Of a DNA stretch of 64,000 nt, positions 228 to 33,385 are shown piece by piece (within the stretch, counting starts at the first letter, position 1; each line of letters opens with the position of its first letter). The position numbers and the translations under genes are program-made. Origin of the DNA: Haliotis asinina (lineage: Eukaryota; Mollusca; Gastropoda; Lepetellida; Haliotidae); the NCBI RefSeq assembly GCF_037392515.1, contig NC_090288.1, forward strand, positions 57,273,673-57,337,672, given 5' to 3'. A model generated the notes under the pieces. The model did no database searches, was not told the DNA's origin, and saw nothing but the letters and a program-made list of their open reading frames with translations.

Positions 228-317
228 TTTGCACATTTGATAATGATACAGAAAAGGCTGGGAAAAGAGATGTTTCCACTGATCGAGCAAGCATACTACC
301 CCAACCACAAGGAAATG
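228..317 (+). CDS. Syn: Synapsin exon: [20 protein letters not shown]... (domain C)
   Basis: Acceptor atttcag at 221-227, donor gtgagt at 318. It encodes 30 codons in phase 0, ending in YYPNHKEM. It matches the vertebrate stretch VFAQMVRLHKKLG...FPLIDQTFYPNHKEM of domain C. The next coding exon is 21.8 kb away, and TIMP lies between them. Confidence 0.95.
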
Positions 318-3300
318 GTGAGTAACCTCTGGGTGAGTTTCACATCTTCTCCTTCTCTTCTCTAAAACAAGAGGAGCTGCAGACCACCTCCCTCCCTCCA
401 CACATCACCACAGATACTCCACTGCAGCCACAATACTACTTTGTGAGGAGAGTACAGTTCGTAGAACAACACTATCAATCTGTTTACCCCAAGCTTTCAC
501 ACTGTCACTTGGTGAAAATGTTCAAATTCAAATTCAGAAATCATCAATTTGTGAAATATTGTCACAGTGGTATTTTATATTACTTTAAACTAAAATGGTA
601 TTTTATGTTACTTTAACATTTATAAGTGCCACAAAAATGTATTTTTCTTTACTTATAATCACAACCTCTGCATTTTGAAAATGTATTTTTATTGCAACTT
701 AGTGTTGATTTCATGAGAAAATTGAATGCCAAGTTTGTGCTATGTCTGAGTATCCTGAATTGTGATTGGAGCTGATGTTTCTGTACAAACTGGCATTGTA
801 GTTGCAGCCTACGTATGTACAGTAGTGTGATGGAAGGAGGCTGGTGGCTGCAGCTCTCGCTCAGATTACAGCCACAACCCCAAGAGAGCTTATTTCCGTA
901 ACAGTTTATGTTTCATGAAATGCAGTATAACAAAGACCCTTATTTGTTTTAATAAGTTTTAGATTCAATTATGTTCAAAACAAAATATGTTTTTTTAGCA
1001 AGTTAAATTTCATTTTTTCTTTTCCCTCACTGGAACCAACGGTTTTTGTGGGCAAATGTGATGGTTTCTTGTCCAATAGTTATGGTCTTTTTTTCACGTG
1101 TGGCAAATGACACAATGACTACCTCTCATCTGACACTAACTGTCACTTAGTGAAACTTCCATACAATCCTTAAGCAGGCTTCAAAAGGCTTTGACAAGGC
1201 TTCAAAATTCACTAAAAGCCATTGTAATACCCCTGAGTTGAGTAAGCATTATTACTTCTTCTTGAAAATATATACTGAAAGGCCAAAGAAATGTTGTAAG
1301 TATCAACAGTGTAACAGTGTGAACCAATGTTTTTTAATATATACCACTGAATATAGTCAAGTTTGATGAAATCATGAACAGTTGTAATATAACCTGTTTA
1401 ATCCAATAAAAATTGTTTGGGATTGAGGTTAGAAATGTTTTTTATTTGTGGAAAAGGAAGAGTTGACACAAACACAACATTGAAATCTAGGTACATGGGC
1501 ATCATGCATGCACTCAGACATAAATTGCCAGCTGAATAGCAACCATTAACTTGTTTTCTGAACACAGTAGCTATGGCTAGGTTAACGTGAGATCAACAGC
1601 AAGCCATTTGGACGTCTACACAATCTTACGTTTCTTTTGCCTTTCAGTATGTATATACTATAAATCATGAAATCAATGTGAGCATTTTATTAGTGCAGAA
1701 AATGCATCTTTACTCTTCTTGCACTATTACAAAGAGGCATTTCCATCTGACCAAGTCTACGTTTGACAACTTTAAGACAAAAAATGTTAAACTCTTGTCG
1801 TCTTTATTGTCTTAGGTTAGCATTCATCACAAGAATACAGAATAGTACCACAATTTAGACATCTCTCATAAAATCAGTTGACAAATGAACACTAATTTCC
1901 ATGACGGTAATTGATATCCATTGGCAAATTACTAATATGTAACAATAATGGAAGTGTTGAGACTACACATTACACCAAAAGAGGTGACTCCCTGTTTACA
2001 GGTATCTCAGGTCACATGTAATTATCACTGGTTACAATCACTGGTCATTGTTTAAGGTCACTCAAGCACATCAGCCAGACCACACATTTTCCAATCACGC
2101 AGGATTATGTCGCGATCATTGCTCACCTTTGAAGGGTTTCAAATCAGATTACATTTGTTGTCATAAGACAATGTGTAGAAAGCAAATCACGTAATCAAAC
2201 ATGACAGCATAATCAAAACATCTTCAGCTCATATCCAGTTATTACATAACAACCCCAATTCAGGTTATTTGGTACATAATAAGTGTAAAAATTAACATCA
2301 AAGATGTCACAATGTCACGGTTTATCATCAACACAGATTTCTCCGCTCACATTGATTTCATGACACATTTTTTATTAGACCCTCACACTCGCATTAAATT
2401 TGTGATGCATTATTTTCATAATAATATATTATAATAATATATTGGGGATAATATGTTTTTAGGGTACTTGTTCCCAGAACACAAAATGCTTTACGTTCAG
2501 AACACATAGGTAGAAAATATCATGTATGAAATGTAGATGTATTTGCATGAAACACGCAGGTTTTTGCATTAATGAAGAAACTGAAGATCAATCACTTGAC
2601 TGTGATTCTTCAAAGGCATTTAGAAGTTGGCGTAGCAATGCAGGACAGATTTTATGGATAGCAACTTCTTGAATTTATTTTATGACGTTTTGGGACTTAT
2701 CCTAGCCCCCTCATCAGGTTGAGCTGAACTGAACCAGTTCAGTTGACCTTCCAGTTGAGCTGTCAGTTGAGTTGAGTTGAGTTCAGCTCAATCTGATGAG
2801 GGGGCTAGGATAAGCCCCAAAATGTCGTAAAATAAATTCAGGAAGTTGCTATCCATAAAATTTGTCCTGTAATCACTGGATTGTCAAATCTAGACCCACA
2901 TACTTCATACACTGCTGTATTATGTAGGTCAAGTGTGTGTTGCCTTAAACAGACAAAAAAGCTGATAGAATGAAAAAACTTTTTATTTTAGCTGGTGATG
3001 TGAACATGGGAAATGGAAAATGTGCACTGGTAGGAAAATGGGTTTGATCATAGCATGGTATGAGACATGGATAGTAATGTCTGGAGAGTAGAGTTGTGTC
3101 CATTATCAAATTCCGATATACTACGGTGGTGAGGGTATGATCGTACCATCAACCACTTTAGATGCTTTTTAGATGTTGACTGGTCTTTAAAACATATTTT
3201 AACAATGTCAGCACCTTCTGGGTAATATCTAATAAAGGTGACTTTGCAAAGCACTGAAGTTGAGCTACAGATCACCATTGGTGTTTTCTCATCATAGTAT

Positions 3301-15300: not shown

Positions 15301-18300
15301 CTTGGTCACATCAACGCCCACCTTCCATGCCCTTCCATTGTGTACATCACATATTTGCGTATGTGGTATTTGAGAGGGGTTGGGGGGATGGCTGTGGTTG
15401 GTTGGGAAGTCTCGGAAATGTCCTAGTGCATTTCAGGAGGGTTAAGAGGATGAATTGATGTACTTCAAAATGAAATTTATTTGTACAAAAGGTTCTGCTT
15501 CATGTCATATGGATATATATGTGTAGTGCAAAATGACCATGAAGTTTTTAAAAGGGTATGTGTAGAGTTGTGAAAAAGTAAGTGTATAATATAATAAGCA
15601 AGTAAATATTAGTTTTTATCAAACTTTAATTCATGACGGTCATGTTTTGTACATAAGTACATGTGAAGCCCATTTCTGGTGTTCCCCACAGTGATGATGC
15701 AGTGTAAAACTAAATGCACTCACTCCAACTTGATTTTTCGCGTTCTGACCCACAAGAAAGAGTAATATTTCTTATAGATATGGTCTGGCATTATCCATTT
15801 CTTATGCCATTTCAGTTTTCTCTAAGATCCCATATGAAAGGTTTTGATTGCATTTCAAAGAGCTTACATTTTAGTTCATTTATATAAAAATAAATGATAT
15901 TAAAGATATTGATAAGACTCAAGTTTGATAGTTGTTAAAGGAATTGATAATATATTCGACATATTATTTAGCAGTCTCACTGAATGATTAAAATGTTTAC
16001 ATCTTCAACTGATGATACAAATCTGTTGTAATTCTAAGTATGATGTAGAGCCTCTAAATGAATGCGGACACAGATCACACCGTATCAGGTCAAGTGACGT
16101 TATGTGCCTGGTGGTAATACTGTATGGCTTCACAACGGACACCAGCAGCTTCCTGTCCACTATGTTTTGTCTGTCATGATGTAGGATGGAGTTATGAACA
16201 TCATAAGTGTGTCATGTTGGGATGGAGTTGTTGACTGTTGCAAGTCTGTGATGATATGATGGAGTTATTGACCATTGTAATTCTGTGATGATATGATGGA
16301 GTTATGAACATCATAAGTGTGTCATGTTGGGATGGAGTTGTTGACTGTTGCAAGTCTTTGCTGATACAGTGGAGTTGTTGACTGTTGCAAGTCTGTGCTG
16401 ATATGATGGAGTTGTGAATGTAGTAAGTCTGTGCTGATATGATGGAGTTATTGGCCATTGTAAGTCTGTGATAATATGATGGAGTTATTGGCCATTGCAA
16501 GTCTGTAACGATAAGATGGAGTTATTGGCCATTGTAAGTCTGTGATGATGGGATGGAGTTATTGACGATTGTAAGTCTGTGATGATGGGTGGTGTTGTCG
16601 ACGACTGTAAGTCTGTGATGATATGATGGAGTTATTGGCCATTGCAAGTCTGTGATGATAAGATGGAGTTATTGACCATCGTAAGTCTGTGATGATAAGA
16701 TGGAGTTATTGACGATTGTAAGTCTGTGATGATGGGTGGTGTTGTCGACGACTGTAAGTCTGTGATGATAGGATGGAGTTATTGGCCATTGCAAGTCTGT
16801 GATGATATGGTGGAGTTATTGACCATTGTAAGTCTGTGATGATGGGTGGAGTTATTGACCATTGTAAGTCTGTGATGATGGGTGGTGTTGTCGACGATTG
16901 TAAGTCTGTAATGATAGGATGGAGTTATTGGCCATTGCAAGTCTGTGATGATAAGATGGAGTTATTGACCATCATGAGTCTGTGATGATATGGTGGAGTT
17001 ATTGACCATTGTAAGTCTGTAACGATAAGATGGAGTTATTGGCCATTGTAAGTCTGTAACGATAAGATGGAGTTATTGGCCATTGCAAGTCTGTAACGAT
17101 AAGATGGAGTTATTGGCCATTGCAAGTCTGTAACGATAAGATGGAGTTATTGGCCATTGTAAGTCTGTAATGATGGGATGGAGTTATTGACCATTGTAAG
17201 TCTGTGATGATGGGATGGAGTTATTGACGATTGTAAGTCTGTGATGATGGGTGGTGTTGTCGACGACTGTAAGTCTGTGATGATAGGATGGAGTTATTGG
17301 CCATTGCAAGTCTGTGATGATATGATGGAGTTATTGACCATTGTAAGTCTGTGATGATGGGTGGAGTTATTGACCATTGTAAGTCTGTGATGATGGGTGG
17401 AGTTGTCGACGATTGTAAGTCTGTAATGATAGGATGGAGTTATTGGCCATTGCAAGTCTGTGATGATAAGATGGAGTTATTGACCATCGTAAGTCTGTGA
17501 TGATATGGTGGAGTTATTGACCATTGTAAGTCTGTGATGATGGGTGGAGTTGTCGACGATTGTAAGTCTGTAATGATAGGATGGAGTTATTGGCCATTGC
17601 AAGTCTGTGATGATGAGTCTGTGATGATATGGTGGAGTTATTGGCCATTGCAAGTCTGTGATGATAAGATGGAGTTATTGGCCATTGCAAGTCTGTGATG
17701 ATAAGATGGAGTTATTGGCCATTGCAAGTCTGTGATGATAGGATGGAGTTATTGACCATCGTAAGTCTGTGATGATGGGTGGAGTTATTGACCATTGTAA
17801 GTCTGTGATGATGGGTGGAGTTGTCGACGATTGTAAGTCTGTGATGATAAGATGGAGTTATTGGCCATTGCAAGTCTGTGATGATATGGTGGAGTTATTG
17901 ACCATTGTAAGTCTGTGATGATGGGTGGAGTTATTGACGATTGTAAGTCTGTGATGATGGGTGGTGTTGTCGACGATTGTAAGTCTGTAATGATAGGATG
18001 GAGTTATTGGCCATTGCAAGTCTGTGATGATAAGATGGAGTTATTGACCATCATGAGTCTGTGATGATATGGTGGAGTTATGACCATTGTAGGTGTGTGA
18101 TGATACGATGGACCTGACAACCATCATAAGTCTATGATGATAAGATGGAGTTGTTGACCATCATAAGATTGTGATGATGCATGGAGTTATTGACCATCAT
18201 AATACTCTGATGATAAGGTGGAGTTATGACCATCATAAGGATGTTATGTTGGGATGGAGTTGTCCATCTGTGAGTTCTGAATGTTGTGAAGAAAATTGCT

Positions 18301-21300
18301 GTCTGCAATGAGAAGATGGAATTAGAAAACCTGTCTGCAGTGAGGAGATTGAATTACAAACATTGTTATTCTGTGATGGAAAGATGAAACTACATTGTTA
18401 GTCTGTGATGGTGAGATGGAAATGCAAACATTGTTAGTCTGTGATGGTGAGATGGAGTTACATTGTTAGTCTGTGATGGTGAGATGGAGTTACATTGTTA
18501 GTCTGTGATGGTGAGATGGAGTTACATTGCTAGTCTGTGATGATGAGATGGAGTTACATTGCTAGTCTGTGATGGTGAGATGAAATACAAACGTTAGTGT
18601 GTGATTGCGAGATAGAATTACATTATTACATCTATAGATCTGTCTCCTACAAGGCTCTTATTATTTGATCCTTGTGAACGTACCACAAACAACGCCTGTG
18701 ATGCTGAATGCTACTTATTGTTGAAAGTATTATGTACACTTATGGTTACTTCTGAGAAAATGACAAGGAAATTATTGAAATAGTTTTACTTCAACAGGAA
18801 TTATAGTGGAGCCATATATCCTTGTGTATGATCTGAGGAACTGAGGAGGAGGAGAGATTGTATGCTGTTGTGTAGCTCCCACTCACTACATTATCCCCCC
18901 ACACTGCCTGGAGACAGCTACATAGTGAGGAAGTAGGAAGTGGGTTTATCAACCACAAAACATGGCTGAGATGCAGTCCTTCTTGAGATAATATCAGCAA
19001 GTTGGTGTTAAAGTATATATGATGTATAAAGCTGTTCTGTCAATCAGTTCACATGGAACCAAAAGTGTATTTTCATAATTTCTAAGGTTTTAGATCTGTT
19101 CATAGATAGTAGTATGTGCAAAGGAGATACCGTGGCCAAAATCATTAATATTAGCCCTGATTACTTTTGGTTTGCCCACACCATACTTGTGCTCAACACT
19201 TTCATCAAGGTCAAGGTCATTTCATACTTTCCACCCACATTAAGTTGAATTAAACCAAAAAGTTCTTTTATAGTGGAAACAGGATGAAGACAGATATATC
19301 TGAAAATGTTTCTGTTCCTCTACAAAGTCAAAACAAGAAGCAAGAATAGACAGTTTTAGTGCCAGGAGGAGAGGAATGTGTAGCACGTGCATGTAGACAC
19401 GTTTATGAGAGACATCACTCCTTTTCTGGAGTGTGGGAACACAAACATACAGGATGTGGGCACATGCATACAGGATATACTCATATATCTGCTGGTGCAG
19501 GATATGACAAGTATCTTGTCTAACATCGCAGTATGTAGGACATCGAGTATCTGTGCAGTAGTATTATATTACTTAGAATGGTTATAATTCTCGACATCTT
19601 GTGAATGCATCAATACACAATACATCCAGCTCAGAGGCAAATGTGTAGGCCTCAGCAGCCTGTATATTTGATGGCAGGAGACACCATTGTTGATGAGAGA
19701 CAGACACTACTGTTGACAGACTGATGCCATTGTTGATGAGAGACAGACACTACTGTTGACTGATGCCATTGTTGATGAGAGACAGACACTACTGTTGACA
19801 GACTGATGCCATTGTTGATGAGAGATAGACACTACTGTTGACAGACTGATGCCATTGTTGATGAGAGACAGACACTACTGTTGACAGACTGATGCCATTG
19901 TTGATGAGAGACAGACACTACTGTTGACTGATGCCATTGTTGATGACCATCAGTCATCACTTTTGGTGACATGCAGACAACACTGTTGATGACAGGCAGA
20001 CACCATTGTTAGTGACATGCAGACAACACTGTTGATGACAGGCAGACACCATTGTTGATGACAGGCAGATACCATTGTTAGTGACATGCAGACACCATTG
20101 TTGATGACATGCAGACACCATTGTTAGTGACATGCAGACACCATTGTTGATGACAGGCAGACACCATTGTTAGTGACATGCTGACACCATTGTTGATGAC
20201 AGGCAGACACCATTGTTAGTGACAGGCAGACACCATTGTTGATGAGAGGCAGACACTACTGTTGACTGATGCCATTGTTGATGAGAGACAGACACTACTG
20301 TTGACAGACTGATGCCATTGTTGATGAGAGATAGACACTACTGTTGACAGACTGATGCCATTGTTGATGAGAGACAGACACTACTGTTGACAGACTGATG
20401 CCATTGTTGATGAGAGACAGACACTACTGTTGACTGATGCCATTGTTGATGACCATCAGTCATCACTTTTGGTGACATGCAGACAACACTGTTGATGACA
20501 GGCAGACACCATTGTTAGTGACATGCAGACAACACTGTTGATGACAGGCAGACACCATTGTTGATGACAGGCAGACACCATTGTTAGTGACATGCAGACA
20601 CCATTGTTGATGACATGCAGACACCATTGTTAGTGACATGCAGACACCATTGTTGATGACAGGCAGACACCATTGTTAGTGACATGCTGACACCATTGTT
20701 GATGACAGGCAGACACCATTGTTAGTGACAGGCAGACACCATTGTTGATGAGAGGCAGACGCCATTGTTAGTGACATGCTGACACCATTGTTGATGAGAG
20801 GCAGACACCATTGTTAGTGACATGCTGACACCATTGTTGATGAGAGCCAGACACCATTGTTGATGACAGGCAGACACCATTGTTAGTGACAGGCAGACAC
20901 CATTGTTGATGAGAGACAGACACCATTGTTGAAGAATAGAATATAACACAAAACAGAATCTCTGTGCAGTTGAACTTGATACAGATACAATCACATACCG
21001 CAAAATAAGCAGAGACTGAGTATGGTTTTACACCATCTATATTACCATCTTTGGCACCAATATCGCAATGGTGGGACTCTCAGACACTGTACCCATGTGT
21101 GGAATCGAGTCTTGAGTGACAAGCAAACACTTTAACATCAGGCTGCTGCACAAAATTTAAAATGCAACGTGTGCGTCCTTTGACAAAATAAAGTTATTGC
21201 ATGAGTTAATTGCTAGCTATGGTGACAGGCTTTATACAATATACATGTACATGACTAATAAGAGCTGCAATCACTGTTAGTTTGCCGTTTTAACATCAGT

Positions 21301-24300
21301 TAAACAAGCAGCAAGTCACACAAACATCCATGTTGCCATTGCTAAGATTGTTTAAGTTATCCAACCTCCACTTCACCAACCTCCACTGTTCTGTAGATGG
21401 AAACATATCACCAGTGTGCATTGTAATCACAGGATACTTGAACAATTTGGCAAAATCTATTTTATCCAATATTCCAATATTCAGAAAAGACAACAGTAGG
21501 CAAATCTTTGAAAAAGAAGGTTATATGGAATACACCATCAAATGTATTTGATTCTTTCCAAAATCAGTATCATTTTGTTGTATGAACAATATACAAACTG
21601 AAACATGCTTCAATAATATTAATATATATTATTAAATACTCAAATACAGTGTTTGTCCATTTTATTCAATGGTTTATTCGATAGAGCATTACTATTGTTT
21701 TTACTCTGTGCTTCACAGTTATTAATGGTATTACACAAATATTGCTCCGACTGGTGTCAGTCTAGTGTGGGTATCCATGTTAAATTGCTGCATGGTATCT
21801 GACGGGGCCAGTACTACAAACCTGGGTTCCCTCCAGCCTAATACACACATGTAGACATGTCACCTATATAAGTGCAATAATCTTGAACACATTTGTGGCT
21901 GAACATGGGGATATAAACTAATGGCATACTTACGATGTCATTTCGCTGACAAGGGATAGTCTGTTTGGTCATGTGACCAAGATTGCCATCCTTGGATCAG
22001 AAGCTTCGTAGTCGGAATGCAAGCATGGATATATGTCAGAAAATGTAACTCATGTTTTGAATGTGAAGTAATGCACATCAGTAATTGTGTTCTTTTCTTC
22101 CAGATAAAAGTCTGTTATTGGGATGTTTTTACCATTTTTGTATGTTTCAGCTCATAACGCCAAAGTTCCCGGTGGTTGTGAAAATAGGCCACGCCCACTC
22201 AGGCCTGGGAAAGGTGAGATACAAAAAAAACCCTTGCCTTCAGAATTCATTTCTTTACATCTAACTTCTCTTGAAATAGCTGAAAATAACATTAGATTTG
22301 TTATTGCTAATTAGTTATATTTATCTGTTAACTGATGATTTGGTATCCAAAAAGCAGCCTTGGTACTGTAATATTTGAGGGTATGGTATAAATTTTGAAA
22401 TCAAGCTTGTCCTGGAGTACATCATTTCATGGTAGTGTTGAAACAAAATAATACACGCCCCTGGTTCATACACTTTCATATTTGATAATATCATGCGGTA
22501 AATCAATTATCAATATATAATAGCACTCAACTCTTGCTAGAGTTATTTTGATCATCAAATTGGAAACAGTATCAGTGTGGTGATGTTGCAGAAATGATTT
22601 AAAAGATAACATTTTATTGACTTTGTTTCGGATTTATTTCAAATTTTCTAGACTCCAGAATTCTCAGAGCAGAGTAACATCCCTTTGGCCATGCTAGAAA
22701 TATGTCATAGTAAGTTTGACTGTTCATGGTTTTAGGTTTTAGGTAGTGTTAGAATTTAGAACCAAATACACAGTGCGATATCAGAGAACTTGTGGTGAAC
22801 GATTATTGACTATAATTGAAATATATGCATTTTTGATGCAATCACAAATTTTAATTTTTTAATTTTAGTTTTATCTAATTAATGTTCTTATGACTAATAC
22901 TGTCATGCAATGAAATGCAATGATGTCGCTAGTATTGTAATTAAACAATAAAAATGGTTAAAATTTTACAGTGTGCACATAGCTTTACACTGTGGAGTGC
23001 ATGTTTGTTTGTAAATATTTGTCCAATTTAATGGCTAGTTTACTTCATTCAGTTGTTTCATACTAACACAGCAAAATTCTCATATATGTTTTTTGCAATG
23101 GATAATCATATTCAATCCTTCCTTCTATTGAGTTTCTATTATTTTCGATCATTAGAAAACCACCAGTTTTAGGTCTTCATGCAGAATACAGAGCTTTCAG
23201 CAAGGTAGTAACATTTAAGGCTTTCTTCACATATCACTCACAAATCCAGTGATGTGACTGAAATACTACTTCAACTCAGCACACTCACTTTCCAAAAAAC
23301 AGACGTATTTAAAAAAAATGTATACCACTGTAAATATCCCAATATCTGTATCAAAAGCTGAAAAAAGCAAATGTGAAAAAGCAACAAAGCTGTTGTCTTA
23401 CAACTGCATTACTGTCACTACCAAAGTCGATTGTGAAGATTAATTGGAAAAACTATTGAATGGAAGAGCAGCTCAATAAGGAACGTGTGTTAGAATCTAA
23501 AAATACCCAAATCAATAATCAATAGTTATCGTGTTTCTTTTCAGACATTGCTATCGATTTATATCTGTGATGGTCAAAATGCAGGAGTTTTGAATCAATA
23601 AAACCATGTTATAATATGAATCAGTCACTCATGAACTATAGATGATGCTCATTGGTTCACAATGATTCAAGCCTCGTCTTAACATATACCTGGTATTAAG
23701 CTGAAATTTTCTTTATTCTATTTCAAGTTTATCCTATTCATAGATGTATAATGTGCACAGTATATGTGAGAAATGTTTGGGAGGCATACTTGAAAAGCAG
23801 TTTTTGGTGTTTTTCTCAAAAGTTTAATCCCAGTTTCTGCAGTGTCTTTTACTCTATTGCTGTCAAATATTCCCAGCTTCTGACTATAGATCAGCTGTGA
23901 TAGGTTCATACTGGTGGTAGGTTCATCCCTGTAGAATGTATTGTAAACTACGCAAAGTTTATGTGTAACATATTCTTAAATATACTACTATGGCTTCATT
24001 TTTTAATAGATCCCAGTACCAAGATTTCTAGCTTTCAAGAAAAAAATTCACTGGATTTTAATGAATGTGTAACTTCTGGTAGAGCATGTTCCTGGGTTGG
24101 ATAACTAGTGCTCAATCCATTTCATATTCGAATAAATGAATATGTTTTAAACAAAACAGTTCAAAGAATGTACAAATTCAGAATTTTTACATTTGTTTTC
24201 ATGCATGCTCCTTCTATACATGGCATGAGTTTTACCACTCGTTTACAACAACTACAATAATGAAAGGATAAAGGATATTTTTTACGTTCCAAAGTCTTGT

Positions 24301-27300
24301 GATTCGAGGTTTGAACTCTTCACTCTTGAAAAATTGCAATGCAATGATGCAAGTGATGTGGAAAATATTATTTAAAAGGAGGCATTTTTTTTAAAAAAGG
24401 TTTACATTTTAGTTTTACATTTGGTTTCTGTTCGGAAGAAAAAATATTATTCTCAACATCAAAATGTGATGGGTTAAATGGCTGGATATTGAGACTTAGA
24501 CAGGCTATTTTCTAAGTCCCTTAAATAATTCTGAAAGTTTGCAATCTTTCTTTGTTGGTAATGGTCATCTGTTAATCTCATGGTCATTCTAGGTTTGACC
24601 TTCTGACCACAGCAGCCTATACTTCCTGTAAGAGGTTCTATGGATTGTCTGGTACAGAATCAATTATTTACATACCCGCACCATATAGCTGGAATATTAC
24701 AGAGTGTGGAGTTCAACAACAAACAGACAGACAAACTGTAAGAGGTGATGAAATGGGCCAGTGGTGATTTGTTTTTTATACTCATGATATCAATCACTGG
24801 ATTGTCTGGTCCAGACTTCTTTACAGACCACCATCATATAGTTGGCATATTGTTGAATGTAGGAACCAAGGATAAAAACACACAAAATGCTCAATATAAT
24901 TTTAGAATATATAAATCGAAGACATCAATGGTGTTACTTTCGTTATATGGATGTTACAGTTGTTCATCATTTGGATGCAGTAGGGGAACATAAATAAGGG
25001 TTATTATACCAAAGACATTTATAAGTAATTACTATCATTTCTGACAGCTGTCAGCCCCTCTTTTTAACCAATTACTGCTCTGTTATTGCCTAGGTGAAGA
25101 TAGACTCTCCTCATTCATTTCAAGATATAGCGAGCGTGGTGGCCGTCACTAAATCATATGCCACTACTGAACAGTTTATTGAAGGCAAATACGATATCCA
25201 TGTTCAGAAAATTGGAAACAATTACAAAGCCTACTTGTAAGTTCTCCAGTGTGTGTTTTCCATGACTGTTTTTTATCACCACCAGATGTTAAAGATGGAA
25301 GAATCAAATGTCATTTCATAGCATTCACATATGAACAGTTATTTTAACAATTTTGACAACTTGTGAAAATTTTAAAAATTTTGAACAAAAATTTCATCAG
25401 ATTTCTTTTATTATATTGACTAAAATATAGAGACATGATAGGACGTTTGGTGCTTCCATCTTTCCTTTTTGATCCGATTGGTGCACCTTTGTGACAGAAG
25501 TTGTGCAGTATGTTGTGGATGTGTGATGGGATAATACAGCCCTGTAATTTCAACCTTGTCATCAGTATGTATAAATTTTTATTTCATTATCTCTCAGACA
25601 TTTGAAACAGGTCAATTTAAAATGATAGTTCATTCATGAAATTTTCTTTGGCTTTAATCCAATACTGAATATTGACTTATATGTTGACTTGTATGAGTTA
25701 CAGGTCTGTTACTTCCAAAACGGCATCACATATCCCAAGAGCTTTTCCCAAGTTTTGCATGGGTGCATGGGATTTTATTTCATTATTTTGCCTTTTACAT
25801 CCATATGCCTTCTCTCTGCTCAGGTTAGACTAGGCAGCCATTATGATTTTCAAGACATAGCAGGGGTGGTAGCTGTTACCTCCTGTTATTCCACAACAGA
25901 ACCCTACATTGACAGCAAATACGACCTTCACATTCAGAAGATAGGCAATAAGTACAAGGCATTCATGTAAGTCCCATGACTGTTTGACCTAGTTACATGG
26001 TGAAAGGGCCTGACCTTTATGTAACCTTGACCCTAAAGTGACCTTGTTTTGATATTAATGCACAATGTATGGGCTTTAACTGAATATGTATTCTGTTTAT
26101 TGGTTATTTTTGCATGTAAGTACAGCATGGTTTCTTTGATTTCAAAGCACAAATTAAAGGGAAAGTAATGTATAAGATAATGTAATCTGTATTTTACAGT
26201 ACATTACAATATCTGTCATGTTTGTTAAAACATATGGGATGAAACGAAATTGTTGGTTAAGGGGACTAACTCCATTGTAAAGGAAAACAAACAACCTATG
26301 ACATACATAAGTAGACCTACATGCAGGTGGGATATTGAATTAGTGATAGAAATTAAGTTTCCATTTCTATTTTTTATATTTCACTCACATATGATATTTA
26401 GCTAAATTCTTTTCTTTAATACTTTTTGTGGTATGGTGTGGTGGCTTAATGGGTGAAACATCTGCCTGGCACACTGAAGGCATGGGTTTGATTCCCTCAC
26501 ACAGATACAATATGTGAGACTCATTCCTGGTGTCTCCCACCATGTTTTTGCTGCCACATCGCTGAAAGCACAGGAAAACTGAACTCAATCCCTAATACTA
26601 TTTGTACACTTTTTTTATCAGTTTTTATATCATCAAAATATATTTGTTTGTGCAAGGTATTCAGTTTAACCTTGATTTTTTTTAACAAAATGGTACATGT
26701 ACTTTCATGTTATGCTGGTAATAGAGCTGTGTGAATAATACAATCATTATTACACTATGTAACATTTTTTAACATTTTCCTACATTCAATTGTCATTTGG
26801 GTATTTCTGTTACTATATGCAGACTAAGTATTTGTCAGTCATTCATTCCTGACATAAAAGCTAAAGATGCATGATAATTATGACAAGGGTCAAGGTCGGT
26901 CACCATTCTAGCTGCCTGTTATTGGTGTGGTCCCTGAATGCACTGTGTAGCAGTAGTTCACATAGCTTTGTTGGACAGAATACAGTCATCATTGTGGTGC
27001 CACTAGACTAGAGGAAGTTGTTTGTCAGTCAAACACTTGACTGTAACCTGTATAAATGGTATTTACTTCTGATAACATTCACCATCCATCTAAATCTTTG
27101 ATGGCTTGTAACACTATTAGTTACAGTTGGGTAGAAACATAACAAATTATCTGGTATTTGTGTTTTTGAACAAATTCTGGATAAAGTAATGGGTATGATA
27201 ATGATGTTACCGTGATTCCCAATTATAACGTTTCAAATAATATCAAATGCATGCCGCATCTTAAGTGCATGAATGTCACACAAATTCTGATAGATGACAA

Positions 27301-30300
27301 TACATGCTTGCTTTTATTCACCCCTGTCACTTAAGGATTCTGAAACAGGAAATCCTTAGAAAAGCAGCCAATCTGCTATGCTTGTCTTTCTGTTTGCATC
27401 CTCAGGGCAGAAGATCCTCTGCCCCCTGTGCTTTTACCTGTGAGGTCCTCAGGACAGACTATGTCCTGTACTCTATGCCTGTCTTGCCATGGGATTCTTA
27501 GGGAAGAACATGTCCCTTCCTCTGTGCTTGTCTACCAGAGGAATACTTAGGGTAGAATAGGTCCCCTTCCCTCTAAGATCATCTCTCAGTGAGATATTCA
27601 GAACAAAATATGTCCCCTGTTCTCCATGCTTGTCTATCTGTGGGATACTTAGGGTAGAGTAGATCTATCCCTTTCCTCTAAGCTTAACTCTCTGTGAGAT
27701 CTTCAGGACAGAATCTAGGTTACTAGTCCTCTACAATTGTCTTGCGATGGGATCCTCAGGGCAGAACAGGTCCACTTTCCTGTATGCTCATGTAGGGCCG
27801 AATAAGCCCACAGCTCCACATGTTTTCCACTTTTTGGATTCTGGAGAAGAACAGACCCTTGGTAGCCAGTGATGTATGCAGACTTATGGCTATATATTAC
27901 ATCATGTCATCGGCATGAGAATTGATATAAAGCAATTATGAGCAGAGTAAATATTGAAACTCAGTTCCATATAACATGAATATGCTCCAGGATGAATATT
28001 GCTGACGTGTGAGGAGTTACCTCCCCTTTACAAGGTTCAAACTGGAGCATGAAAAGTACAGGTGATGTCATCTGATTGTTACATCATAGTATCCTATGAC
28101 ATTATAATTTGTATCAGAATTTCACTTCAGCAATATCTCCTAGTGATCCCACAAAGGCAGATTCTCTTGTGAATATGAGATGATAATTCAAGGTGTTATT
28201 AATGGCATGACAAAATTTGGGGAGATTAACAGTATCATTAACGATATTAAATTGTATGATGAATGTCATTATACAAATAAATTTGTAACGGCTCTTTCTT
28301 GAGCAGAGGCAATAGTACATTGCTGCTGTTGTTTGTTGGTTTGTTTATGTAATTGTTACTTCTCTGTTTCACAGTTGCTATGGTAATGCATCATCACTAT
28401 CATCAATCCCATTGTCCGTCACTGTATTCATATTCAACTGCACACGTGTTTAATCCTTTCAACATCAATGTGTTTGCATGATCTGCTGAGACTTGGTTCA
28501 TCGCTTTTTTCTCACCCAGATTGATTTCATATGATGAATATTTCCTATGCCTCAGTTTACTGAATAATAAATGTTATAAGATAGATGTTATGACAAATGA
28601 TCCTGTAATATCATCAGTGTAATGTCAAAAATGGTTACGGTAATGTCGTCTGATATTTAGCAATGATGACATTACAATAATGTCTTAAATAATGTTCATA
28701 ATTATGTCACGTTTTCATGTTATTTGCAGTTTTAGTAAGTGTCAGTTTATGTAGAATATTTTTTGTAATAGTTCAACCGAAACATATATAGTTTATTGGA
28801 AGTATCACAAACTTGTTAAAACAGTTTCTGCATTGTTTATTAATTTAACCCGAAAATGTTTCCATTGATAACTCCAGTGACAAATAGAGATTAAAGTTGC
28901 ACAACAGCGGATGTGTGTACGTGTCATCCAGTGTACATGGGATTAGACCAGTGGCGCATTAATTAAAACTATCTATTAGATAAAGCCAGTCTTGTGTAAA
29001 CTTTTTCTTCAAGTACTGAGTGCAGCATTGCTGTGATGGTTTCACTGTGCCAAGTTTTGTTTATCTGAACACTGCTTCCACTAACCAAGTGTTTCCTGTC
29101 TCCAGGCGGAAGTCTATATCAGGGAACTGGAAGGCCAACACAGGATCAGCCATGTTAGAACAGATTGCCATGAATGAGAGGTGAGGGATGTGTAATGTAA
29201 GATAAAACCAATGTTTGAAATACTTACCTGTCCGACCACCAAGATGTTTTTTTTCAACATGGACTGCCAGTTTCTCAAATTCACTTGCCCGACCGTCAGA
29301 TTAAAATTTAGACATGTATATGAAGATATTCCTGACATTTCAGGATTATAAGCCATTATTAATTTAGTTGTAAAATTAAGTGATGAATTCCAGTTGGAGA
29401 ATAAACTACACCGCTTGTAAATTTAAAGGACAGGTAAGTTTTGGTCAGGGCTGGCAAGTTTTACATCAAACCAGCCCTGTGGTCTGGCTGAAATTTTTAG
29501 GAGCTTCCTAATCCTGATATAAAAAGTGCTATTAGGTGATTGGTGGAGATTGTTAACAAAAACAAGCTGTTGGCATACTACACCTGCAATTTTATGCCTA
29601 TAAATGTAAGGTTGGTTGGCATGACAACAGATTGCATGCATTCTCTGAGTAGATTCAAATTATGGTTACATTAATGCATTTGTCCATAGAGTAGGTTCAG
29701 TATTTGGGTGTATGCCCTTTGTTTAGATCAAGACATGTCAGATGATGTGTCTGTTCTTTGTGTAGATTCAAAACATGGGCAGATGAATGTGCAGAAATGT
29801 TTGGAGGTTTGGACATGGTGGCCGTGGAAGCAATACAAGGCAAGGATGGGAAAGAGTACATCATTGAGGTGAGATTATCATAGCAGTTCAATAATCAATG
29901 AGATTAACTCTTTAAGTAATTTGAGTGAGCTAACATTTTGTACAGGTAAGATTTCAGCATATCATTTAAAAACCTACAACTCATTTATAGAAGTAACATT
30001 GGATTTTCCAAACCAATGACAAATCTGTGGCCAAAGGTGAGTTGGACTGTACAGTTCTGATAATATCCAATGAGCAAGTGTTTATTAGTCACCATCAAGT
30101 AGTGATAATGCCAAGTGTTGCATGTATCTTGTCCACCATGAGCAGTCATTACATACAAATGCAAAGATATATTAGTTTTTCACCTGAAAAACATAGGAAG
30201 ATGTTATATTAGTGACAATATAGAATTATGTTGGACACTTTCTTCTTCTGTTAGTGATATGTATCAAATTGGAATTGTCATGCACATGCCTGCAATAATA

Positions 30301-33300
30301 CTCTGTGATTTCTGAGGCCATTCTGAACATTGTAACCTTGATTGTACAACCTCTTAGCAAGTGTTACCTGATGTTCTGTGGATGGAAGAGCATTGTAGAT
30401 TGTGTTTCATATGTGAAAAGAGCTGGAGGGAGAGAAATATATTGCTTGATAGAGGATGATGTGAGAGTGCATCATGGTCAGTGGATGTTATTCAGTTTGA
30501 AATTTGTACATTTGAGTACATACTAACCATCAAAATTTCATACTCACTAGTGTAAATATAGCCACTGAATTCAGGCAACTGTTCTGAAATAAATATTGCA
30601 AAATATTCCATTCTGTAGGTAGTATATTAGAAAGACCCGTGTGTTGTATACTAGATAACATGGTGGTAACTTGTGGAACACTTTCTGCAGGTGAATGGGT
30701 CATCAATGACCCTGCTGGGCGAGACACAAGAGGAAGACCGCAGACACATAGCCGAGCTGGTCCTCGGCAAAATGCAGATCTACTGTCGACCCACGCCAAC
30801 AATGAGGTAAGTCGAAGTGTGCAGTAGTGGGAGGAGAGGAGGATAGGGTTATTTAGAGGGTAAGGGTCATCTTCTGTATTGTTGGGGATCACAATAATTA
30901 AATGGAAAGCATGTACTGGCTACATGCCTGTGTATTTTGTTGGCAGCAAGACGTCAAGTACAGGAGGACTGATGCACTACGCTATGAACGGCAGCCAGGG
31001 TCCCACCCCACAGATGCCACCACAACAGCAGCAGATGCAACAGAATCAGCAGATGTCCCAGATACAAGGCAACAAGTCAGTGGCAGGAAACTGACATATC
31101 TTTGTAACTCTAATTGGTGTATGAAAGTAGTGCATATTGTGTCTTTCAAACATTTTTCAAACCGAAGTAAAAATTCACATAATAAAACAAAATAGCTTCA
31201 GCAAGTTTGGCTGTCAAACAACACTTTTCCAATGAACTGATTAGTGATTGCAGTTCCTAAATGCACAGGAAAAATATGGTTTCTCAAGCTCTTGCAAGCA
31301 TATTGACTCCAGACTTTGGGATCAGATCTCCTCTCATCCTGTACTTCTCAAGGGCTTACATTTCTAAACCTACTGTAGTCCATGAATCACTAGCTTGCTT
31401 CTGGTCACAAATTACCCACCCAATTTCCATAAAAAGGAAGAGGTCAAGTAAGGTAGCTAGTCTTTCCTAGAATTCAAATGTACCATTGGTTTTTAAAGAC
31501 TGGAACATCCTTACTCAAAAGATTATGCAAATCAGTGTCTTATAGCAAACTTTCTTGATCAGAAAAAAAGTACTGGTTGTCATACTGTTGATATTGTGAA
31601 TAAAACAAAGGCTGGTTTGTAACTCACATTCTGATTGGTTTGTTTCATTGATGAAGGGGCAGATAATTTGAGATAGTAAGTGGGAATGGATCAAGAGGTT
31701 AATGCAGGTTTATGCCAGCCATGGAGATATAGAGGATAGTTTCCCCAAACAACTCCCTCATGTTCCCTGTGTTTATTTAGTCCACAGGGAAATCCTGCCA
31801 ATGCCAGAGGACCAGGAATGATGCCAATTGGAGGTCAAGGTCAGATGGGTTCCTCCCCCATGCCGGTGCCTCAGGTTGGACGAAACCAAAGCATGGATGA
31901 AGAAGACACGATGAAGAACTTAAGGAAGACATTTGCAGGTGGGTGTCCTGTCCATCAGTGTAATACTTTAATTTGCTAGTTGGCCATCAGTGCCTGCTTC
32001 TGCTGCAGGCATTGAAATTTATAGGCCCTAAATGAAATCTGCAGGCCCAATTTGTTGCTGTACTCAGTTTCAAACTGTTTCTAAAAAGTCAATTAGCAAA
32101 GCCTGTGGAGCAGAATTTACAAGTTTATTTATTTGTTGAAGCCATTGTTGACATTCATTGTGCAAATAGCTTAGATATCAGGAAGCTAAACTGTTATCGT
32201 AACATGATGGATCATGGTTGATTTCTGAATGTTAATAAAGGAATAAAACATGGAAAAGATTACAGTTAAGAAAAAATAATTTACTGAAGGCCACAAGGGC
32301 CTGCAAATATGTGGAACTGCCAGCCTGATAAATTAGCAACCAGTGCTGGTCCAGCATTTATTTCAAACACTACTGTCCTGGGGTTGCTACATGATCCAAA
32401 GTTAGGAAACTCGTATTTTGGAAGAAGCGTTAATAAAAAGACAGTAAGAGGCGACTAACAGGATCGAGTGGTCAGGTTCACTGTCTTGGTTGACACATGT
32501 CATCATATACCTGACCGATGCTCATGGTGTTGATCACTGGATTAATATGTTTGGTCCAACTTGAGACCCATGAAGGTCCAGGGTAGAATAGACCTTCAGC
32601 ATCCCATGCTTGCCATAAAAGGCAACTATGCAAGTCATAAGAGGCAAATAATAGGATCGAGTGGTCTGGCTCGCTGACTTGGTTGACATGTCATCAGTTC
32701 CGATCCATGCTCATGTTGTTGATCACTGGATTGTCTGGTCCAAACTCTATTATTTACAGACCACCACCGTATAGCTGGAATATTGCTGAGTGTGGCGTAA
32801 AACTAAACTCACTCCCTCACTTGGTCCCACTTGATTATTTACAGACCAACGCCATATGACTGGAATATTGCTGAGTGCGGCATAAAACTGTACTCACTCA
32901 CTAATAAAAAGGCAGACACTAAACCATGGTGACTGGAAAATAGGTCAGAAACATTACTAAAAGTTGGCCACAGTACCAGGATCCTCACAGAAACAGCATG
33001 TGCTGTGAAAAGGGCCCTTGTCTGAGAAGGGGAAACAATCGCAAGGGATGGGCTCATTCAAAATCAATGTCTTTCATTTCCCTTTCTTACCCCGTATGGT
33101 TTTGGTGACCCATTCATGGGTCTTTTCAAATGACTTCTGGTACCTCAGTATTGTAGCATAAGTGGCATGTAATGGATGGGTCATCAGATGTCGATCATTG
33201 CTCACAATATTAATCACTGGATTCTAGTTTGGGTTCAGTCACAACAACAAACAAAAACCCACGTAGCCTCAACCCTAAAACTCCCAAAACATTCTGCAGC

Positions 33301-33385
33301 TATTAAACACAGGGGCTATCATATTTTATTACACTTATGCATTTCCTCTGTTTCTTTGTTGACAGGAATCTTCGGTGATATGTAA
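228..33385 (+). CDS. Syn: Synapsin, 3' part of the gene (5' exons lie left of the window)
   Basis: Synapsins coat synaptic vesicles, tether them to actin and to each other, and bind ATP through the ATP-grasp-like domain C. Nine spliced positions join in phase (298 codons plus TAA at 33383-33385). In order: [31 protein letters not shown] (phosphate-binding lysine and glycine-rich loop); an FQDIA...KYD block; [46 protein letters not shown]; a linker rich in Q, P, M and G; and [19 protein letters not shown], which matches the conserved C-terminal domain E. All junctions have GT/AG sites. Domains A/B and the start of C are missing because the window opens in an intron. The first intron in the window is 21.8 kb and contains the TIMP gene on the other strand. 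A long 3' UTR follows. Family assignment rests on remembered vertebrate synapsin sequence and is very secure. Confidence 0.96.
318..2641 (+). other. Synapsin intron, first part
   Basis: AT-rich, with no exon or recognisable element. An AT-repeat patch lies at about 2420-2445. Confidence 0.6.
2642..2868. mobile_element. Foldback element related to the Penelope-like terminal sequence
   Basis: Arms 2642-2729 and 2780-2868 are imperfect reverse complements joined by a GTTGA-rich spacer. Each arm contains 'ttatggatagcaacttc', the same signature as 'ttatggatatcaacttc' at the ends of the 6.7-8.2 kb Penelope-like insertion. The right arm has CTGATGA (2793-2799), a 6-bp stem GGGGCT/AGCCCC and then AAAAT, a degraded hammerhead core. 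It is probably a small non-coding derivative. Confidence 0.65.
3380..4935. repeat. Degenerate tandem repeat with 'catatccttgcatgat' core
   Basis: The core 'tgacatatccttgcatgatccc' and close variants recur roughly every 55-110 bp through 1.5 kb. Inside it, 3934-4110 is a cleaner 44-bp array ('ccttgcatgccatatactaa...' x about 4). Small open frames here are by-products. Confidence 0.75.
4936..6149 (+). other. Synapsin intron, no feature seen
   Basis: AT-rich; the short open frames have no codon or domain support. Confidence 0.55.
6150..6281 (+). repeat. SINE-like 3' fragment with (TCAC)n tail
   Basis: The body 'cattcctggtgtctcctgcc' through 'gctggaatattg' to 'gtgtaaaactaaat' is followed by a clean (CTCA)n run at about 6224-6280. 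It shares its body with the tRNA-headed copies at 10.83, 26.43 and 53.56 kb. Confidence 0.7.
6790..6850 (-). ncRNA. Hammerhead-ribozyme-like motif, left arm
   Basis: On the - strand CTGATGA is followed by a 5-bp stem GGAGT/ACTCC with an 8-nt loop and then GAAAC. This is the core order of a type I hammerhead, with one extra A between the core and the stem. Penelope-like elements are known to carry hammerheads in their terminal repeats. Cleavage activity is not shown. Confidence 0.55.
7521..7805 (+). pseudogene. GIY-YIG endonuclease piece of a Penelope-like element (right arm)
   Basis: An open stretch of about 95 codons from [20 protein letters not shown] to the stop at 7803-7805, with the GIY-YIG-type motif, conserved R, H and E positions and the NRDQGVHLP end. 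It is the terminal part of the element's protein only; the reverse transcriptase is absent. Confidence 0.75.
8130..8195 (+). ncRNA. Hammerhead-ribozyme-like motif, right arm
   Basis: CTGATGA at 8150-8156, stem GGAGT (8158-8162) with ACTCC (8171-8175), GAAAC at 8176-8180. It is the mirror copy of the motif in the left arm. Confidence 0.55.
8480..8660. repeat. GATA / 'gagtattgta' imperfect tandem repeat
   Basis: Units 'gatagatagagtattgta' recur with 25-45 bp spacing. Next to it, 'ccaaaccaatgttactggta' occurs twice (near 8660 and 8886), which marks a local duplication. Confidence 0.55.
9060..9256. repeat. CA and CT microsatellite cluster
   Basis: Alternating (CA)n and (TC)n runs, with (TC)n near 9196-9217 and (CA)n near 9225-9250. 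Open frames on both strands here are low-complexity artefacts. Confidence 0.9.
9324..10229 (-). other. Probable TIMP 3' UTR with candidate poly(A) signals
   Basis: No other gene is visible here. On the - strand AATAAA occurs at 9605-9600 and 9329-9324, giving a 3' UTR of roughly 0.6-0.9 kb. Which signal is used is unknown. Confidence 0.4.
10230..10351 (-). CDS. Timp: TIMP last coding exon: [16 protein letters not shown]...NLTC stop
   Basis: Acceptor gttctcttgcag at 10352, stop TGA at 10232-10230. It carries the fifth and sixth cysteines (LWTELCDHI and FPNLTC) and aligns to DGKMHITLCDFIVPW...GCEC of TIMP2, stopping at the domain boundary. Confidence 0.9.
10230..14235 (-). CDS. Timp: TIMP-like metalloproteinase inhibitor, N-terminal domain only
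   Basis: TIMPs are secreted proteins that block matrix metalloproteinases: the amino group and carbonyl of the first mature cysteine chelate the catalytic zinc. Four coding exons on the - strand (14235-14118, 12455-12364, 11178-11040, 10351-10230) join in phase into 156 aa. Residues 1-22 are a signal peptide ([17 protein letters not shown]...). The mature chain starts [13 protein letters not shown], the TIMP C-x-C motif, followed by [42 protein letters not shown] and FPNLTC-stop. Six cysteines fit the three disulphides of an N-TIMP domain. The vertebrate-type C-terminal domain with six more cysteines is absent. The gene lies inside a synapsin intron on the opposite strand, as in flies and vertebrates. 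It is expected to be transcribed from a TATA promoter at 15.27 kb. Family assignment is strong; single-domain status depends on no further exon being spliced in before the TGA. Confidence 0.92.
10831..10985 (+). repeat. tRNA-headed SINE-like copy
   Basis: The head 'gggatagccttgaggttaaa' resembles a diverged A-box region, followed by a B-box-like 'ctgtttaatttccc'. The body is 'tgtttctggtgtcccctggc' and the tail 'gctggaatattgctaaatgt' to 'aaaaccaaactca'. It lies in the last TIMP intron. Confidence 0.65.
11040..11178 (-). CDS. Timp: TIMP coding exon 3: ...[11 protein letters not shown]...FITG
   Basis: Acceptor gtttttcctcag, donor gtaaga at 11039. It is 139 nt, phase 0 in and phase 1 out. It carries the fourth conserved cysteine (SDGLCGI) and the strand before the GK motif (vertebrate SSAVCGVSL...YLIAGK). 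A proline-rich insert ([15 protein letters not shown]) lies between them. Confidence 0.9.
11267..12190. repeat. 19-bp minisatellite in a TIMP intron (all three - frames open)
   Basis: Unit 'agggtgagtagacaagggt' and variants, roughly 45-50 copies. Nineteen is not a multiple of three and the unit has few stops on the - strand, so long overlapping frames of about 264, 270 and 355 codons ([15 protein letters not shown] type) appear. These are artefacts. On the + strand each unit contains GTGAGT, a 5' splice-site match; on the - strand the array is pyrimidine-rich. Confidence 0.93.
12364..12455 (-). CDS. Timp: TIMP coding exon 2: VVKAIPSNW...[10 protein letters not shown]
   Basis: Acceptor attgtttcag, donor gtgaga at 12363. 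It is 92 nt, phase 1 in and phase 0 out. It corresponds to the VIRAK...YEIKQIKMFKG strands of vertebrate TIMPs. The exon's acceptor is the first unit of a 44-bp tandem array (12452-13327). Confidence 0.9.
12452..13327. repeat. 44-bp minisatellite built from the TIMP exon 2 acceptor
   Basis: About 20 copies of a 44-bp unit ('gctgaaacaatatatccagt' plus 'catggacaacatagcacgtt' plus 'tact'). The unit at the exon edge contains the true TIMP acceptor (attgtttcag on the - strand), and every other copy repeats that acceptor-like string. Two variants alternate (cagtgac and catggac; tagcacg and taccact). Confidence 0.93.
13328..14117 (-). other. TIMP intron 1, non-repeat part
   Basis: AT-rich unique-looking sequence with no further exon seen. 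Confidence 0.5.
14118..14235 (-). CDS. Timp: TIMP coding exon 1: signal peptide and CMC motif
   Basis: ATG at 14235-14233 lies 4 nt after an acceptor (tgtatttccag), so a noncoding exon lies upstream. The donor is gtaaga at 14117. It is 118 nt, phase 1 out. It encodes the signal peptide, then [17 protein letters not shown]. Confidence 0.93.
14242..15207 (-). other. TIMP 5' intron
   Basis: The interval lies between the noncoding exon donor and the acceptor before the ATG. No other feature was recognised. Confidence 0.5.
15214..15245 (-). other. Timp: TIMP 5' noncoding exon (inferred)
   Basis: On the - strand the sequence ...ctcactcgacagaag is followed by a good donor gtatgt at 15213-15208. 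It lies about 30 nt downstream of a TATA box and about 1 kb upstream of the acceptor in front of the TIMP ATG. The 5' end is an estimate from the TATA spacing. Confidence 0.6.
15268..15275 (-). promoter_or_regulatory. TATA box of the TIMP promoter
   Basis: TATAAATA on the - strand, with a predicted start near 15240-15245 and a splice donor at 15213. The position fits an independent promoter inside the synapsin intron. Confidence 0.6.
15645..15728 (+). repeat. SINE-like 3' fragment
   Basis: 'gtgaagcccatttctggtgt' followed by 'gtgtaaaactaaatgcactc', the body and tail of the tRNA-headed family. Confidence 0.6.
16184..18262. repeat. 37-bp minisatellite, about 55 copies
   Basis: Unit 'agtctgtgatgataagatgg' plus 'agttattgaccattgta'. 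Variants (ggtggtgttgtcgacgattg; ggccattgcaag) are interspersed and form higher-order blocks. Many units contain GTAAGT (or GCAAGT) on the + strand, a 5' splice-site match. It lies about 1 kb upstream of the TIMP promoter. Confidence 0.95.
18375..18600. repeat. 32-bp tandem repeat related to the 37-bp array
   Basis: 'ttagtctgtgatggtgagat' plus 'ggagttacattg', about 6-7 copies. It shares 'agtctgtgatg' and 'gatggagtta' with the preceding array, so it is probably a shortened offshoot. Confidence 0.85.
18601..19640 (+). other. Synapsin intron, no feature seen
   Basis: Unique-looking AT-rich DNA between two tandem-repeat regions. Confidence 0.5.
19665..20935. repeat. 23-bp minisatellite with a 506-bp higher-order duplication
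   Basis: Basic unit 'gacaggcagacaccattgtt' plus 'gat' or 'agt' (23 bp), with a second variant 'gagagacagacactactgtt'. The distinctive string 'catcagtcatcacttttggt' occurs near 19950 and again 506 bp later. 506 is 22 x 23, so a block of 22 units was duplicated. Confidence 0.92.
20936..22150 (+). other. Synapsin intron, last part
   Basis: No exon or element recognised. It ends at the acceptor of the exon at 22151. Confidence 0.5.
22151..22213 (+). CDS. Syn: Synapsin exon: [21 protein letters not shown]
   Basis: Acceptor gtttcag at 22144-22150, donor gtgaga at 22214. It has 21 codons, phase 0 at both ends. It carries the VVVK lysine that contacts ATP phosphate in mammalian synapsin and the flexible GHAHSGxGK loop. 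Confidence 0.96.
22214..25093 (+). other. Synapsin intron before alternative exon A
   Basis: AT-rich, with no further copy of the alternative exon found by eye. Two SINE-like fragments lie at 24639-24725 and 24786-24866 (listed separately). Confidence 0.5.
24639..24866 (+). repeat. Two fragments of the second SINE-like family
   Basis: Both read 'ggattgtctggt(c/a)cag', then '...ttacagaccaccatcatat' or the equivalent, then 'agctggaatatt'-like ends. This is the same family as the full copies near 32.6 and 62.9 kb. Confidence 0.65.
25094..25236 (+). CDS. Syn: Synapsin alternative exon A (domain C)
   Basis: Acceptor tgcctag, donor gtaagt at 25237. It is 143 nt (47 codons plus 2 nt). The peptide starts [18 protein letters not shown] and ends [10 protein letters not shown](L). 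It keeps the vertebrate-like core [13 protein letters not shown]. The same frame and length are found in a second exon 587 nt downstream. Because 143 is not a multiple of three, using both would break the frame, so one of the two is expected per transcript. Confidence 0.95.
25824..25966 (+). CDS. Syn: Synapsin alternative exon B (domain C), homologous to exon A
   Basis: Acceptor ctgctcag, donor gtaagt at 25967. It is 143 nt with the same phases as exon A. The peptide starts [18 protein letters not shown] and ends [10 protein letters not shown](M). It retains the vertebrate-like pieces [16 protein letters not shown] and final Met, but has TSCYSTTE where exon A has TKSYATTE. There is no stop or frame break, so it looks functional. 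Confidence 0.93.
26428..26592 (+). repeat. tRNA-headed SINE-like copy
   Basis: The head 'gtggcttaatgggtgaaaca' (A-box-like) and 'gggtttgattccctcacac' (B-box-like) are followed by 'cattcctggtgtctcccacc' and an 'aaactgaactcaa' tail. It is the best-preserved tRNA-like head in the window. Confidence 0.75.
27370..27840. repeat. Degenerate 65-70 bp tandem repeat
   Basis: Units of the form 'ggatcctcagggcagaacag' plus '...gtcccctttcctctatgctt' plus 'gtct' recur about seven times with strong divergence. Confidence 0.65.
29106..29180 (+). CDS. Syn: Synapsin exon: [19 protein letters not shown]...
   Basis: Acceptor tctccag, donor gtgagg at 29181. It is 75 nt. The first G completes the split codon left by exon A (TT+G, Leu) or exon B (AT+G, Met). 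The peptide contains [18 protein letters not shown], nearly identical to the vertebrate segment. Confidence 0.96.
29766..29868 (+). CDS. Syn: Synapsin exon: [20 protein letters not shown]...
   Basis: Acceptor tgtgtag, donor gtgaga at 29869. It is 103 nt and completes the Arg split in the previous exon. It encodes [20 protein letters not shown] and then YIIE, a strand and acidic residue of the ATP-grasp active site region. Confidence 0.95.
30691..30806 (+). CDS. Syn: Synapsin exon: [18 protein letters not shown]...
   Basis: Acceptor tttctgcag, donor gtaagt at 30807. It is 116 nt, phase 0 in and phase 2 out. It encodes [20 protein letters not shown] and then ELVLGKM, the end of domain C (vertebrate GSSMPLIGDHQDEDKQLI...ELVVNKM). 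Confidence 0.95.
30947..31075 (+). CDS. Syn: Synapsin exon: [11 protein letters not shown]..., Q/M/P-rich linker
   Basis: Acceptor gttggcag. The donor is inferred as gtcagt at 31076, because it gives the phase (2) that the next exon needs. It is 129 nt. The peptide is rich in Q, P and M ([15 protein letters not shown]), typical of the disordered region after domain C. If the donor is skipped, the frame runs to a TGA at 31092-31094 after five further codons, which would make a short isoform without domain E. Confidence 0.85.
31781..31938 (+). CDS. Syn: Synapsin exon: G/M/P-rich linker and start of domain E
   Basis: Acceptor gtttatttag, donor gtgggt at 31939. It is 158 nt. It encodes [20 protein letters not shown] and later [25 protein letters not shown] is a basophilic-kinase-like site (RxxS), and the end is the conserved domain E helix. 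Confidence 0.92.
32361..32905 (+). repeat. Three consecutive copies of the second SINE-like family
   Basis: Copies near 32440-32560, 32575-32820 and 32821-32905 share 'gttgatcactggattgtctg', 'tatttacagaccaccaccgt' and 'agctggaatattgctgagtg', ending 'taaaactaaactcactc'. They sit in the last synapsin intron. A weaker piece follows near 33165-33230. Confidence 0.75.
33366..33385 (+). CDS. Syn: Synapsin last coding exon: IFGDM stop
   Basis: Acceptor tttgttgacag. The exon completes Gly and encodes IFGDM, then TAA at 33383-33385. Vertebrate synapsin I ends LRKSFASLFSD; here the end is LRKTFAGIFGDM. The exon continues into the 3' UTR. Confidence 0.92.

Follow-up and report, generated by a model that had tools for sequence, protein, structure and literature searches.

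The synapsin gene of Haliotis asinina carries two adjacent homologous exons, 7A and 7B, which are quite probably an old tandem duplicate. One of the two would be taken into each mature message, giving synapsins with different edges of the nucleotide pocket. That each exon is used is suggested by the genomic sequence. The plus strand of the window, i.e. the whole stretch of 64,000 nucleotides that was analysed, carries the 3' part of the gene. The exons were located by their splice sites and by tblastn, for which domain C of a vertebrate synapsin II served as query; they are numbered as in mammals.

228..317, plus strand: synapsin exon 5, 90 nt, FAHLIMIQ...YPNHKEM (tblastn and splice sites)
22151..22213, plus strand: synapsin exon 6, 63 nt, equivalents of Lys269 and Gly276 (tblastn and splice sites)
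25094..25236, plus strand: alternative synapsin exon 7A (exon A), 143 nt (splice sites, Synapsin_C match)
25824..25966, plus strand: alternative synapsin exon 7B (exon B), 143 nt (splice sites, Synapsin_C match)
29106..29180, plus strand: synapsin exon 8, 75 nt, equivalent of Lys336 (tblastn and splice sites)
29766..29868, plus strand: synapsin exon 9, 103 nt, equivalents of Glu373 and Glu386 (tblastn and splice sites)
30691..30806, plus strand: synapsin exon 10, end of domain C (tblastn and splice sites)
31781..31934, plus strand, approximate limits: synapsin domain D/E exon
33366..33385, plus strand, approximate limits: last synapsin coding exon, end of domain E (IFGDM, then stop)

The gene and the age of its paired exons

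The genome-wide search with Synapsin_C (PF02750; eight candidates scored) gave six matches in 1.14 Gb and 159 contigs. All six were exons of one gene; therefore a single synapsin gene was found rather than a pair of genes. Three more exons lie upstream, beyond the window, and the first exons were not found in the 40 kb searched upstream of it. Exons 5-10 spliced with either alternative exon matched PF02750 with 3.2e-94 and 4.3e-93 (314.7 and 311.0 bits, nearly equal). By alignment and numbering, the equivalents of Lys269, Gly276, Lys336, Glu373 and Glu386 are all in the shared exons 6, 8 and 9; for this, Lys337 of synapsin II (PMC10933366) was taken as Lys336 in the numbering of rat synapsin I.

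The surroundings of these exons have features of their own. Intron 5 contains long tandem repeat arrays (window 11283-13326, 16177-18628 and 19668-20932). At window ~6690-8244 near-identical inverted copies of one coding stretch are present; two of its reading frames were tried and had no Pfam match, and the stretch is reminiscent of a GIY-YIG nuclease of a Penelope-like element. Downstream of synapsin, three coding stretches of the ninjurin family are on the minus strand (42739-43299, 54208-54627 and 58641-59033; PF04923 with 9e-31, 9.4e-32 and 7.1e-25). Rfam had no match in the window at gathering scores. Antisense in intron 5, on the minus strand, are TIMP-like pieces at window 10233-10358 and 14122-14169. 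They matched PF00965 with E = 0.0064, or 3.2e-4 when the two pieces were joined, both below the curated cut-off. A TIMP gene nested in reverse orientation within the synapsin gene is described for most animals examined (PMC2825198).

A sequence-only reading of this DNA had proposed a pair of homologous 143-nt exons, 587 nt apart, in the same phase and without stops, which was confirmed. Each exon is directly preceded by AG and directly followed by GTAAGT, and each is open in frame 0 only. Exons A and B are identical in 94 of 143 nucleotides and in 29 of 48 residues. The differences are distributed over the three codon positions as 11/48, 10/48 and 28/47; dN is 0.26 and dS is saturated, beyond estimation (NG86). 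When 48 changes in 141 positions were placed at random into exon A, the frame stayed open in 21% of the trials and none of 20,000 kept at least 29 of 47 residues identical. The introns flanking A and B are dissimilar, with 25% and 33% identity over 100 nt (ungapped).

As single exons, A and B matched Synapsin_C with 2.8e-19 and 2.9e-18, and their best matches among solved vertebrate synapsins were 7.8e-19 and 1.9e-17. Identity to vertebrate synapsin II, 33/48 for A and 32/48 for B, places both within the range of the shared exons (exon 5, 22/30 or 73%; exon 6, 17/21 or 81%; exon 8, 20/24 or 83%; exon 9, 23/35 or 66%; exon 10, 16/29 or 55%). Compared with four vertebrate sequences from solved structures, A is identical in 33 or 34 of 48 residues (synapsin III 29/46) and B in 28 to 31 of 48 (synapsin III 27/46). 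The divergence of A from B is about that of B from the vertebrates and is larger than that of A from the vertebrates. This pattern would fit either a very old duplication or an increased rate of change afterwards.

Taken together, saturated synonymous sites, the bias to third positions, the neutral trials and the dissimilar introns argue that the duplication is old, as the earlier reading had suspected, and that both copies were held as protein-coding. Decay of the duplicate, a possibility raised at the same time, was not seen: the frames and splice sites of both exons are intact. In bacterial/archaeal and viral contigs a second exon in relatives was not confirmed, as expected for an animal gene.

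What the exon swap may change in the protein

Aligned to solved synapsins, the span of exons A and B equals residues 280-327 of rat synapsin I, and the exon for these residues would have been duplicated in tandem long ago. The rat numbering is supported by the equivalents of Val372, Glu373, Glu386 and Val387, which fall at the published positions (PMC9678998). The 19 residues which differ between A and B are spread through the exon and include 306, 307, 309 and 310; at 305-310 the sequence is EQFIEG in A and EPYIDS in B. Staurosporine docking assigned the hinge region of the ATP site to Pro306 and Ile308 and matched Glu305 to a kinase pocket residue (PMC2922380). All three hinge residues, Glu305, Pro306 and Ile308, fall within the swapped exon. 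Residue 306 of human synapsin III is Ala; thus Pro appears dispensable at this position and a non-Pro hinge is tolerated. Tyr301, Src site 8 (PMC6817820), is kept in A and B in differing sequence contexts. Differences between the two proteins may be expected at the ATP pocket edge (305-310) and near the Src site.

It had been suggested that the swap tunes ATP or Ca2+ binding. As to ATP, a change at the pocket edge is possible. The Ca2+ ligands are unlikely to be changed directly because Glu373 and Glu386 are in the shared exon 9, which the swap cannot touch. More generally, the residues for ATP-phosphate, Ca2+ and the tetramer would be unchanged between the two forms.

The idea that each exon kept a different half of the ancestral signature failed. 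The motifs on which it was built are there: SVVxxTKxYAT in A, and DFQDIA, EPxIDxKYD and the final Met in B; FQDIA is kept in A too. Among the 35 residues invariant in the four vertebrate sequences from solved structures, A keeps 28 and B 25; 22 are kept in both and 4 in neither. Split at 305/306, the first half retains 14/18 in A and 12/18 in B, the second 14/17 and 13/17. The losses are spread through both exons.

Would such proteins behave differently? Conservative exchanges (K/R, I/L, F/Y, E/D, V/I) account for many of the 19 differences, and K269, K336, E373 and E386, the residues for ATP, Ca2+ and the tetramer, are in shared exons. From this one could argue that the pair is real and used while its products are functionally equivalent, the choice being a matter of relaxed splicing between two acceptable exons. 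We consider this rather unlikely, if the best of the alternatives. Saturated divergence points to two copies which were both held for long, and octopus Syn8.2, possibly a product of the same switch, was reported from gonads, not from brain (PMC6817820).

We favour exons which give distinct proteins. The switch might then shift nucleotide affinity or exchange and, in turn, the balance of dimers and tetramers and the clustering of vesicles. Synapsins bind ATP tightly and are similar to enzymes that use it; the role of the nucleotide is still debated. Two versions of the ATP pocket in one otherwise identical gene product would offer a clean test of the role of the nucleotide in vesicle clustering.

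Predicted use of one exon per message

The earlier reading had noted that inclusion of both exons would shift the frame. Indeed, splicing of 6-A-B-8 leads to a stop starting at the eighth base of B, and skipping of both (6-8) leads to a stop inside exon 8. The spliced forms 6-A-8 and 6-B-8 are both open in frame. By frame, A and B are a well-supported predicted pair of the mutually exclusive kind, and each mature message would take either 7A or 7B. Messages with both exons or with neither meet an early stop, and we infer that they are then removed by nonsense-mediated decay.

A stop upon double inclusion is also what a poison exon would provide. One exon would then be the regular one, and the other would mainly serve to lower synapsin output when its added inclusion shifts the frame, its coding sequence being a relic. 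Of the eight donors scored with a simple matrix, that of exon A is the lowest, at 3.2 compared with 4.6-7.7. A poison exon does not need a conserved protein, however, and here both exons are constrained as coding sequence, with third-position bias and saturated dS, and fit Synapsin_C about equally well. We consider a poison exon unlikely.

How, then, is one of two coding exons selected? Three devices of exclusion were considered. Both exons have GT-AG splice sites of the common type with GTAAGT donors, at variance with U2/U12 incompatibility. The intron between them is long, which disagrees with a spacing clash; 587 nt is above the minimum intron length required for splicing. Therefore, the choice is explained neither by a clash of spliceosomes nor by too little room. 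Competing RNA pairing of the Dscam type between the three introns, with 400 nt of each outer intron used, was also rejected: of 30 shuffles, 7, 16 and 4 did as well as the best duplexes. Presumably the exon is picked by a cell-type splicing factor, not by a spliceosomal clash. Two elements may serve as leads, and as leads only, to regulators of exon choice:

25291..25463 (arms 25291-25319 and 25435-25463), plus strand: strong hairpin predicted within the A-B intron (folding)
25756..25769, plus strand: two TGCATG motifs, 68 and 60 nt upstream of exon B

The hairpin is long and imperfect and starts 54 nt past exon A. Its folding z was -4.4 for 25286-25470, a segment selected for its arms, and it has no second copy within the window. 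The TGCATG motifs we take to be of the RBFOX type; 0.8% of the 100-nt stretches of the window have two or more such motifs, and the pair upstream of B was picked after looking. Among PTB-like tracts, one CTCTCT is present upstream of exon B (counted without a null).

The same gene also provides a view of exon duplicates with a different fate. Upstream of the intact exon 3 (L007:1137-1228), BLAST detected five partial tandem copies of the start of the exon:

L008:9638-9681, partial copy of exon 3
L008:9729-9788, partial copy of exon 3
L007:712-779, partial copy of exon 3
L007:829-918, partial copy of exon 3
L007:983-1036, partial copy of exon 3

Over the matched part they are 75-87% identical to exon 3, and most include the acceptor region. 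None of the five matches the end of the exon or its donor, and four soon reach a stop when read in the frame of exon 3. The copy at L007:983 is open across the 30 codons read, but past its start it has no likeness to the exon. These broken copies indicate that exon duplicates in the synapsin gene do arise and decay, unlike the A/B pair, and they give an impression of how an unselected duplicate in this gene looks. The five partial exon 3 copies make it evident that exons are often duplicated here, and one might regard the second exon 7 as just another neutral copy, young or unused and bound to decay; yet the dissimilar flanking introns, the saturated synonymous sites and the intact frames and splice sites make this very improbable.

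A second donor at exon 5 and synapsin isoforms of other molluscs

Protein variants similar to those expected from exons 7A and 7B have probably been seen already in sea hare and octopus. The connection starts at exon 5, which ends with GAAATG, followed by GTGAGTAACCTCTGG and then by a second GTGAGT.

318..332, plus strand: possible longer form of exon 5 (15 nt more), from a second GTGAGT donor at 333 in addition to that at 318; VSNLW would be inserted

Use of the second donor would add exactly VSNLW, in frame and midway through domain C. When the window is translated in all six frames, VSNLW occurs once, at this donor. Octopus Syn8.2, from ovary and testis, carries five inserted residues, VSNLW, centrally in domain C; it also has substitutions that Aplysia 8.2, Helix, Loligo and mammals share (PMC6817820). 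Among open-licence PubMed Central texts this paper alone contains the letters VSNLW. Most likely, the match reflects an old donor shared with the octopus. Given this match, the other feature of Syn8.2, its substitutions, is likely the result of the A/B choice. For Aplysia, one gene is reported to give four synapsin variants; they differ in the N-terminal and the central part, by two insertions and 'one possible substitution' (PMC2825198). The link to the isoforms of Aplysia and octopus was drawn from the text descriptions rather than from compared sequences. By further extension, one of the two forms might correspond to the Syn8.2 type of octopus gonads and Aplysia.

The earlier statement that no description of the pair is known is doubtful, since substitution-type synapsin variants were reported for Aplysia (PMC2825198) and octopus (PMC6817820). 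Titles and the starts of abstracts of the papers that searches of open-licence PubMed Central listed contain no description of the exon pair itself. Probably, the A/B pair is the source of isoforms which had been cloned before from other molluscs. The apparent novelty lies in the genomic layout, in the evidence for age and constraint, in the corrected location of the differences and in the likely source of VSNLW. The pair thereby would tie the reports on sea hare and octopus isoforms to a concrete gene layout, including the likely origin of VSNLW.

A wider proposal is tentative, and we consider it possible rather than probable. In molluscs, two splicing choices, the VSNLW donor and the exon 7 swap, may be linked and very old and may together yield a distinct synapsin which is partly non-neuronal. 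With the nucleotide pocket remodelled, the response of vesicle clustering to ATP would not be the same in nerve terminals as in secretory cells. Splicing would then have reached what vertebrates did with three genes.

How does the pair compare with known systems? It is a switch of a known kind, and a well-made example of it. With mutually exclusive tandem duplicated exons (PMC9741552) it shares homologous neighbours, of which one enters each message, and the tuning of one region of a protein. From this class it does not differ in kind, only in gene and domain. The docking-type RNA pairing of some mutually exclusive exons was not found for A/B. The Aplysia californica variants 11.1, 2.1, 7.1 and 8.2 likewise come from a single synapsin gene; the section that describes them does not state their genomic origin, and they can be likened to A/B by description only (PMC2825198). 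Octopus vulgaris Syn8.2 combines domain C substitutions with VSNLW, which in Haliotis could be made by the second exon 5 donor. It was presented as substitutions plus an insertion, not as an exon pair, and the main text is without the word 'exon' (PMC6817820). Mammalian SYN1-3 belong to the same gene family, with TIMP nested in reverse orientation. They vary mainly at the C-terminal end, with extra exons in SYN3, and a swap in the ATP domain is not among the variations described there (PMC2825198).
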